This document shows positions 15,079 to 18,249 of a stretch of DNA of 33,920 nucleotides, in pieces. Position 1 is the first letter of the stretch; each line of letters begins with the position of its first letter. Location: contig JAPWUB010000004.1 in the NCBI GenBank assembly GCA_028275745.1, positions 1 through 33,920 on the forward strand, written 5' to 3'. Source of the DNA: Desulfurococcales archaeon (GTDB lineage Archaea; Thermoproteota; Thermoprotei_A; Sulfolobales; Ignisphaeraceae). The notes below the pieces were generated by a model that searched no databases, had not been told where the DNA came from, and saw only the letters and a program-made list of their open reading frames with translations. The translations under genes and the position numbers were made by a program.

Positions 15079-15900
15079 GTGAGACCCCCTTGCAAGATAA
15101 TAGCGCTCCTAACTGATTTTGGTTATGAGGATCCGTACGTTGCTTCAATGAAAGGAGTTGCACTCAATATCTGCCCCGATGTAAAGCTTATCGATATTAC
15201 ACACAGCATACCAAGCTTCGACATTGAGACAGGAGCGTTTACCCTACTTGCATCATACAAGTACTTTCCTCAAGGCACAATCTTCGTAGCTGTTGTCGAC
15301 CCTGGCGTAGGTAGTTCACGAAGACCTTTACTTATTGTGACAAGGAATTACTACTTTATAGGTCCTGACAATGGCTTGCTCACAGCCGCAGCTGAGGATG
15401 ATGGTATTGAAGCTGTGATAAAGATAGAAAATGAGCTGTACTTTAGGAAACCCGTCTCAACATCATTTCATGGAAGAGACATATTCATGCCAACAGCAGC
15501 TTGGCTCGCCTGCGGTGTAGCTCCCGATGCTTTTGGCTCGCGTCAATCAATTGAGAGTATTGTAAGAAGCTCTATATCGATGTACATCAATACGATTAGC
15601 ACAGACTGTGTAGAGGTCAGAGTTCTTCATATAGATAAGTTTGGCAATGTAATTCTATCTCAGCGTTACGATTCTTTAGAGAGCGTCCTCGGTATTAAGC
15701 TGGGGGATAAAGTGTATGTTAGGTGTAAGGGAGCAGAATATGAAGCACTTGTGGCAAAGGTGTTCTCAGTTGCTAGCGAGAAACAGCTCGTTCTTTACAA
15801 GAATAGTTTTGACTTCGCAGAACTAGCTGTAAATAGGGGCTCTGCCAAGGATTTAATGGGTGTAAGAAAAGGAGATTCAATAATTATTTGTAGGAAATGA
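15079..15900 (+). CDS. S-adenosyl-L-methionine hydrolase (adenosine-forming), DUF62 family
   Basis: A 273-residue protein of the SAM hydroxide adenosyltransferase family, which cleaves SAM with hydroxide to adenosine and methionine. Signatures are LLTDFGYEDPYVASMKG (residues 8-24), IDITHSI, VVDPGVGSSRRPLLI, FIGPDNGLL and FHGRDIFMPTAAW. The Asp of TDFG, and the RD/H of HGRD, make the active site that activates water. It is the normal length for the family. GTG 15079 is set by AGGTG eight bases upstream. It may regulate SAM pools made by the SAM synthetase at 33373, far away in the same window. An RNA-rich intergenic stretch lies just downstream. Confidence 0.93.
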   Translation: MRPPCKIIALLTDFGYEDPYVASMKGVALNICPDVKLIDITHSIPSFDIETGAFTLLASYKYFPQGTIFVAVVDPGVGSSRRPLLIVTRNYYFIGPDNGLLTAAAEDDGIEAVIKIENELYFRKPVSTSFHGRDIFMPTAAWLACGVAPDAFGSRQSIESIVRSSISMYINTISTDCVEVRVLHIDKFGNVILSQRYDSLESVLGIKLGDKVYVRCKGAEYEALVAKVFSVASEKQLVLYKNSFDFAELAVNRGSAKDLMGVRKGDSIIICRK

Positions 15901-16223: not shown

Positions 16224-16775
16224 TCACTTGTCTAGGACGTATTTCTCTGAAATTATGATTCCCTTCTCATGCAGCTTAGATGCACATCGTTTACAGAACT
16301 TATTGGTTTTTCTATCTACGTCTCTTACAGAGTTACTGAAGTTCATTACGCATCCAGGTGTTCTGCAATGCTCTAGGCCTAGGAGATGACCAAACTCATG
16401 TAATACCTCTTTTTCAACTCTGGAGAAGATAGTTGTTGTAGAGTTTCCTAGCATTAGTCGTGGCAAGAAAACTGCGGCTGATTGTAGCAATGGCATTGCA
16501 AGTCCAAATACAAAGTTAAGCCCTGGCACATATGCATCTCTACTTGATAAAAGTATTGCATAGCTTTCCTCGGGCCTGAAATAACTTATATGCTCTACAA
16601 CCAAGTCAGCTAAGTATTGATCCCTATATGGATTGTAGAACGTATCGGGGATCTCAACTTTACGAATCTCAATAACCTCAGCGTTGAAGGCTTCTTGAAT
16701 AGTTGTGCGTGCAACTAATAAAATTTCGTGATTAATGTCAGCATCATAGAGGATCACTACCTTTAAGCTATTCAA
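16224..16775 (-). CDS. amzA: Archaemetzincin, zinc metalloprotease
   Basis: About 183 residues. The hallmark HExxHxxGxxH with downstream cysteines is present as HEFGHLLGLEHC, followed by CVMNFS (the Met-turn of metzincins), then D and FCKRC. Archaemetzincins bind a catalytic zinc through the three His and a second structural zinc through the Cys; here the spacing C-x4-CxMNFS and FCxxC matches. The frame is open from TTG 16799, but that codon falls inside a C/D RNA candidate. TTG 16775 has GAGG nine bases upstream and gives an N-terminus MNSLKVVILYD typical of the family, so I use it. Substrates in Archaea are unknown. No signal peptide is evident. Confidence 0.9.
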   Translation of the reverse strand: MNSLKVVILYDADINHEILLVARTTIQEAFNAEVIEIRKVEIPDTFYNPYRDQYLADLVVEHISYFRPEESYAILLSSRDAYVPGLNFVFGLAMPLLQSAAVFLPRLMLGNSTTTIFSRVEKEVLHEFGHLLGLEHCRTPGCVMNFSNSVRDVDRKTNKFCKRCASKLHEKGIIISEKYVLDK

Positions 16776-16789
16776 AGCCTGCACCCTCT

Positions 16790-16848
16790 TAATCAGCAAT
16801 GCGGGAAATACATCACTTCTCAGCGCGCGAACTTCTCATCACTGAAAA
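16790..16848 (-). ncRNA. C/D-box guide sRNA candidate with a likely 16S rRNA target
   Basis: On the minus strand: box C GUGAUGA (16836-16842), a 12-nt guide GAAGUUCGCGCG (16824-16835), D' CUGA (16820-16823), 3 nt, C' GUGAUGU (16810-16816), a 13-nt guide AUUUCCCGCAUUG (16797-16809) and D CUGA (16793-16796). The second guide is complementary to CAAUGCGGGAAA, a segment I recall as conserved in archaeal 16S rRNA near E. coli 372-383. The N+5 rule gives methylation of the G in CAAUG (about E. coli G376). The first guide resembles the complement of the GCGCGAA stretch just upstream, but less exactly. The RNA lies directly before amzA and overlaps its alternative TTG start. Confidence 0.88.
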
Positions 16849-16905: not shown

Positions 16906-18249
16906 TCAATAGAATGATCTTGTTTCTCCTTGTGGGAACAGCGAATTGAATGCCTCTCTAATTATGGGCGTCTTATCCTTGAGCTCTCTCCTTATATAAA
17001 GCCTTAGCATTAGTGCTGCCTTAGGCATGCTGAACCATGTAAACTCAAGCACGTTTCTCTTTGTAATACTCCCACTTTCTGAAATTACCATAATTTCATT
17101 CTCTGACAACATTGGGTTTAGCGGAAGCTTTGGTGTGTCTATGAAGAAGCTATAGCCCCTTACAACATCTAATCCTCTATCCTTCAGCTCAACCTCAAGT
17201 AAGAGCTCAATAAGTTCCTTGCCTCTCGTGATTATATCTATTGGTAACTTTGCATCTGAAACAGGAAGCCTATACTCTAACACAAGCTTGTAAGGTATTT
17301 TACGTGCTAAGAAATCTTTGACCTCCTTTAGAACAGTAACATTGTTGTTGAATACAAGGCTGTAGTCGTCTAGCTCAACATATTTATTAGGATCTTTAAC
17401 CGCTTCGTCAAAATCTATAAGCTTTTTCTTGTCTATAAGCGCTATTATGTCTCCCAGGAACTTTGATACTGCTCTCACTGTCTTGTGGTAGTATACTGTG
17501 GAGAACATGTACATCCTCGCAAGCATAAGCTGTTCAAGAGCGTCTAGAGCTCTGTAATCAACTACAAGAGTGTTGCCATGTATCTTGAGGTAATAAGCTA
17601 TCCTCTCCCAATCTATATGGCTACCATATCCAGCTCCCGTGAAGTAGGAGTCTCTCAAAAGGTAGTCTATTATGTCAGCACTAAAGACGCCTTTCAGTAA
17701 GTAAAAGAATGCTCTCTCTGTACCAACATCTTGAATCACTTCCTTAAACGGCCATTCAAGCTCGCTTGAACTTCTTAACGCCTCTGAAACTTCATTCAAT
17801 TTGTATCCATACTCTGTAACTATCTTCTCCACAGCTTCAGCAACCTCAGGAGTCTTCAACACAATTTCAGCACCTATGTGTTCATGTGTTATACCCCGAG
17901 GCACTAGAACAACATCCTCAAAAAGATGACTGTAGGGACCATGCCCTATATCATGTAAGAGCCCTAGAAGCCTCATAATGATTATGTACCTCTCAAGATC
18001 CTCCTGCCTAATCTTATGCTTTCTTAGAACTTCCCTAACCATAACCTCCATAACATGAGCTACACCAATACTGTGACTGAAACGCGTATGCACAGCTCCA
18101 GGATAAACAAAGTCAGCTACAGAAAGTTGCTTAATTCTTCTAAGCCTTTGAAATGCAAAGGAATCTATGAGGGGTAGCTCATGCTCATAAATCCTTATGT
18201 ATCCGTGTATGGGATCCTTAACAATTTTGTACTTCTCCAGGCTTAACAT
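16906..18249 (-). CDS. HD-domain phosphohydrolase, dGTPase/SAMHD1-like
   Basis: A 447-residue HD-superfamily hydrolase. IHGYIRIYEHELPLIDSFAFQRLRRIKQL at the start, then HTRFSHSIGVAHV (first His), LLGLLHDIGHGPYSH (HD pair at about residue 110-120) and HEHIGAEIV are the motifs of the SAMHD1/YdhJ group that removes triphosphate from dNTPs or hydrolyses other nucleotides in a metal-dependent way. The length and order fit archaeal homologues. ATG 18249. It precedes amzA with ~130 bases between, where a C/D RNA candidate sits, so the three may share a transcript. The substrate is not determinable. Confidence 0.92.
   Translation of the reverse strand: MLSLEKYKIVKDPIHGYIRIYEHELPLIDSFAFQRLRRIKQLSVADFVYPGAVHTRFSHSIGVAHVMEVMVREVLRKHKIRQEDLERYIIIMRLLGLLHDIGHGPYSHLFEDVVLVPRGITHEHIGAEIVLKTPEVAEAVEKIVTEYGYKLNEVSEALRSSSELEWPFKEVIQDVGTERAFFYLLKGVFSADIIDYLLRDSYFTGAGYGSHIDWERIAYYLKIHGNTLVVDYRALDALEQLMLARMYMFSTVYYHKTVRAVSKFLGDIIALIDKKKLIDFDEAVKDPNKYVELDDYSLVFNNNVTVLKEVKDFLARKIPYKLVLEYRLPVSDAKLPIDIITRGKELIELLLEVELKDRGLDVVRGYSFFIDTPKLPLNPMLSENEIMVISESGSITKRNVLEFTWFSMPKAALMLRLYIRRELKDKTPIIREAFNSLFPQGETRSFY

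Follow-up and report, generated by a model that had tools for sequence, protein, structure and literature searches.

The closest described systems are the double-guide box C/D sRNAs of archaea. Dennis et al. (PMC4644070) count about half of the archaeal sRNAs as double guides, whose two sites are no more than 100 nt apart, and guide-target pairing follows a 9-bp rule (Dennis et al. 2015) that is relaxed in some cases for double guides. Box C has the consensus RUGAUGA, and approximately 7% of archaeal C/D sRNAs overlap the 5' end of an ORF (PMC7994747). Here, we describe an element beside an archaemetzincin gene and suggest with high confidence that it encodes an ordinary archaeal box C/D sRNA, probably of the double-guide type, in which the D guide would be directed to G376 of 16S rRNA and the D' guide probably to C361.

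Results

The window, i.e. the whole 33,920-nt stretch of DNA analysed, is a contig (C25) of a 1.37-Mb genome (G000) that is 76% complete and belongs to a genus with ten further genomes. On the minus strand, a 50-nt core at 16842-16793 reads directly as GTGATGA-GAAGTTCGCGCG-CTGA-GAA-GTGATGT-ATTTCCCGCATTG-CTGA, and it has the terminal boxes C and D, the internal boxes C' and D' and the guides of approximately 10-13 nt that define archaeal box C/D sRNAs. The features of the locus are:

16793..16842, minus strand: C/D box sRNA core from box C to box D, 50 nt (from sequence, pattern and shuffles, and orthologues)
16836..16842, minus strand: box C, GUGAUGA (from sequence; fits the consensus RUGAUGA, PMC7994747)
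16824..16835, minus strand: D' guide GAAGUUCGCGCG, 12 nt; core UUCGCGCG invariant in five species; best 16S site GCGCGAA, with N+5 at C361 (E. coli numbering)
16820..16823, minus strand: box D', CUGA (from sequence)
16817..16819, minus strand: D'-C' spacer GAA, 3 nt (from sequence)
16810..16816, minus strand: box C', GUGAUGU (from sequence)
16797..16809, minus strand: D guide AUUUCCCGCAUUG, 13 nt; 12 contiguous Watson-Crick pairs to 16S CAAUGCGGGAAA, with N+5 at G376 (E. coli numbering)
16793..16796, minus strand: box D, CUGA (from sequence); its first C can give a 13th pair with 16S rRNA
16224..16799, minus strand: archaemetzincin (Peptidase_M54) ORF; first possible start UUG at 16799-16797, inside the D guide, with further in-frame starts downstream
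16906..18249, minus strand: gene for an HD-domain protein, upstream; its stop lies 63 nt before box C

An earlier note on this DNA had placed boxes C, D', C' and D at correct spacing on the minus strand, and there they are read directly; the strict four-box pattern with these spacings occurs three times in the window and in none of 200 dinucleotide shuffles. An Rfam search of the stretch at gathering score matched no family. With relaxed thresholds, the 19 weak matches listed for the stretch were all to C/D snoRNA families; 18 lay on the minus strand, and the best was to snoPyro_CD (RF00095; 26 bits, E 5e-4). On its own, the sRNA shows no exceptional folding (z -1.25), in line with a class whose members fold on protein. 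A scan for promoters and terminators was empty, the models being bacterial and unsuited to archaea. The genome contains a fibrillarin gene (E 7.5e-106).

Two other C/D box sRNAs were observed on the minus strand of the window. The second, at 16163-16115 directly downstream of the archaemetzincin ORF, reads GTGATGA-ACGCCTTTACG-CTGA-GCCC-ATGATGT-AAGCGAATTGCG-CTGA; in three congeners, its D' guide has 10 Watson-Crick pairs to 23S CGTAAAGGCG and its D guide 10 Watson-Crick pairs and one G-U pair to 23S TGCAATTCGCT, and a C/D RNA near archaemetzincin in G009 shares this D guide. The third, at 4850-4802 between two ORFs, has a D' guide TTGTGGTGGGCT with 10 Watson-Crick pairs to 23S AGCCCACCAC in two congeners and one G-U pair in a third, and in Rfam it matches sR28 weakly (25 bits, E 3e-5). 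In addition, the putative product of an ORF at 15079-15900 on the plus strand, which starts MRPPCKIIALLTDFGYEDPYVASMKG, resembles by eye the SAM hydrolase/fluorinase-like (DUF62) family.

The assembly contains neither a 16S gene (Rfam model and BLAST with a congener gene) nor a 23S gene (Rfam model) of its own, and the target was therefore examined in congeners, several of which show N across their rRNA region. The site is covered by the 16S genes of four congeners (G002, G004, G007 and G008), which read CAGGCGCGAAA(C/A)CUCCGCAAUGCGGGAAACCGUGACGGGG and contain CAAUGCGGGAAA; the complementarity of the D guide to an archaeal 16S segment, which the note had described, is thus borne out by four genes of the same genus. 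Pairing comprises 12 contiguous Watson-Crick pairs in each of them, N+5 included (at least nine such pairs being looked for), or 13 if the opening C of box D is added, a base included in the duplex by Dennis et al. (PMC4644070). None of 3000 shuffled D guides reached 12 pairs in congener 16S, and the duplex including the C of box D has an energy of about -22 kcal/mol. The predicted N+5 nucleotide in congener 16S is the G of CAAUG, in agreement with the earlier reading; it is G376 in an E. coli numbering derived from the 344-357 primer region. The proposed alignment of both guides to 16S rRNA, run on the genes of the congeners, gave 12 pairs for the D guide and seven for the D' guide.

By contiguous pairs, the best 16S site of the D' guide is GCGCGAA, 15 nt upstream of the G376 site and with C361 at N+5. 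The partial likeness to the complement of this segment that had been pointed out earlier amounts to seven Watson-Crick pairs in G000 (eight in G009) with guide base 1 mismatched. Shuffled D' guides equal the 7-pair match within 60 nt approximately 5% of the time and, by duplex energy, one further position within 16S equals the C361 site, so that the match is weak on its own; the stronger sites by energy fall beyond the 16S end, in the spacer. Seven base pairs also fall short of the nine required by Dennis et al. 2015 (PMC4644070). No target surpassing GCGCGAA by contiguous Watson-Crick pairs was found in 16S, in 23S (three congeners) or in the 43 tRNA genes of G009. Of 15 related RNAs, 14 have a partner guide whose best 16S site is no more than 30 nt from G376 (at -15, -28 or +26; relatives' 16S was used wherever the own gene was missing), and base-1 mismatches recur in these partner guides. 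Given that partner guides aim near G376 and that about half of the archaeal sRNAs follow a double-guide pattern, we suggest that the D' guide probably targets C361.

Using a sequence model of the RNA, full-length orthologues were detected in five of the 11 genomes of the genus (G000, G003, G006, G009 and G010) with 52-62 bits, or 52-59 bits if G000 is set aside; the next matches had 20 bits and below, and those inspected resemble other C/D RNAs. The G009 orthologue occupies positions 1327601-1327650. Neither the guide core UUCCCGCAUUG nor the D' core varies among the five genomes, and the boxes are invariant or nearly so, in a surrounding of variable spacer and flanks. In the remaining six genomes, several of them with an identical 16S target, no orthologue was found, from which it follows that the modification is dispensable. 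Outside the genus, the C'-guide-D segment was matched with at most three mismatches in two further genera of the family (G011, G014 and G017) and, elsewhere in the order, in families f3 (four genomes) and f7 (five); reversed-pattern controls gave no match in one search and one in the other. The RNAs sharing the G376 guide outside the genus mostly carry other partner guides. A further match, in G077, has poor boxes and was left uncounted.

Family f7 provides an altered target. The 16S genes available from this family (G033, G042 and G052) read CAAUGCGGGCAA, with GCGGGCAA at the target, and each of the five f7 guides has UUGCCCGCAU or UUGUCCGCAU, with UUGCCC or UUGUCC in place of UUUCCC. Judged from these sequences, the change in the guide is compensatory and follows the altered 16S target; conservation is thus accompanied by a guide that changes with its target, and this joint change is strong evidence that the RNA functions by base pairing. 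In G033, guide and target come from one genome and their duplex includes one G-U pair; the other f7 guides were compared with relatives' 16S. The 16S gene is missing or masked in the other same-genus carriers of the orthologue, and the only within-genome comparison is therefore that for G033.

The f7 RNAs have the same target region as the window sRNA with the guide order swapped: at loci L094, L095, L096, L106 and L107, the G376 guide occupies the D' position, the D'-C' spacer is longer and the partner is a D guide to CGGGGCGCAC with N+5 at G348. As a separate observation, several 16S genes in the order far exceed 1.5 kb (loci L019, L023, L024, L025, L026 and L028). Three of them (L025, L026 and L028) depart from the conserved 16S sequence directly past CGCAA; introns or insertions in 16S, some of them inside the G376 target site, would fit these observations.

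The abutment on the archaemetzincin gene that the note described is seen, the link being positional only. The sRNA adjoins this gene in G000, G003 and G010 only, where the guide in each case contains a UUG in the reading frame of the peptidase; in G006 and G009, the sRNA lies far from the gene. A scan of contigs with an archaemetzincin query found distant relatives only and no copy of the sRNA. The neighbour is probably incidental. If sRNA and archaemetzincin mRNA share sequence, excision or RNP coating could in principle remove or block a translation start and thereby couple peptidase output to guide-RNA production; we consider such coupling highly improbable.

Discussion

Three other explanations of the locus were weighed. 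The RNA could be a single guide, with the D guide alone productive and the D' guide either without an rRNA target or directed at an unseen RNA such as a tRNA or an unassembled rRNA segment. The 7-bp D' site with its mismatched first base and its 5% shuffle rate would fit such an RNA, as would the report that approximately one third of sRNAs show no significant complementarity to rRNA and that one of the two guides is empty in some (Dennis et al., PMC4644070); however, the D' core UUCGCGCG is invariant in five species, 16S, 23S (three congeners) and 43 G009 tRNA genes hold no site superior by contiguous Watson-Crick pairs, and the partner guides of related RNAs target the same neighbourhood. 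We regard a single guide as possible but rather unlikely.

A role chiefly in cis, with the element serving as a leader or L7Ae-binding k-turn that controls archaemetzincin translation, could account for its position against the ORF and for the in-frame UUG in G000, G003 and G010, but G006 and G009 carry the same RNA away from archaemetzincin and conservation covers the guides and not the boxes alone, which makes a cis role very unlikely. Even less credible is that box-like words came together by chance where the archaemetzincin gene begins: such an origin would be eased by the shortness of TGATG and CTGA and by the likeness of box motifs to start and stop codons (PMC7994747), yet the four-box pattern is absent from the 200 shuffles, the guides are kept where the RNA sits elsewhere (G006 and G009) and the guide follows the target change in f7, so that chance is contradicted by the conservation data.

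For the double-guide sRNA, we infer transcription, RNP assembly and methylation, the latter likely at G376 and probable at C361. Boxes C and D would form a k-turn and boxes C' and D' a k-loop, to which L7Ae, Nop5 and fibrillarin would bind. In the resulting RNP, the D guide would pair with helix 15 of 16S rRNA, leading to 2'-O-methylation of G376 (E. coli numbering), and the D' guide would form a weaker duplex with GCGCGAA, 15 nt upstream, probably leading to methylation of C361 or at least anchoring the RNP.

The window sRNA leaves the general view unchanged. It adds a well-supported and conserved methylation-guide prediction for the genus, at G376 and probably also at C361 of 16S rRNA, and the retention of one guide with differing partner guides across families of the order illustrates the evolution of archaeal guide RNAs.

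With respect to known families, the window sRNA is of the same RNA class as Rfam snoPyro_CD (RF00095) and sR33 (RF01120), to which it has weak full-length matches on the same strand, and it is not a member of either (RF00095, 26 bits versus a gathering score of 45; RF01120, 23.6 bits versus 37). The likeness to the double guides described by Dennis et al. 2015 (PMC4644070) is close: it shares with them (i) four boxes, guides of 12-13 nt and the N+5 rule, (ii) two targets, the second of them probable, within 100 nt, and (iii) a location between or overlapping protein genes, and there is no mechanistic difference between the two. Its particular guide pair may be new; the RNA itself is almost certainly a well-formed, conserved and ordinary member of a large known class.
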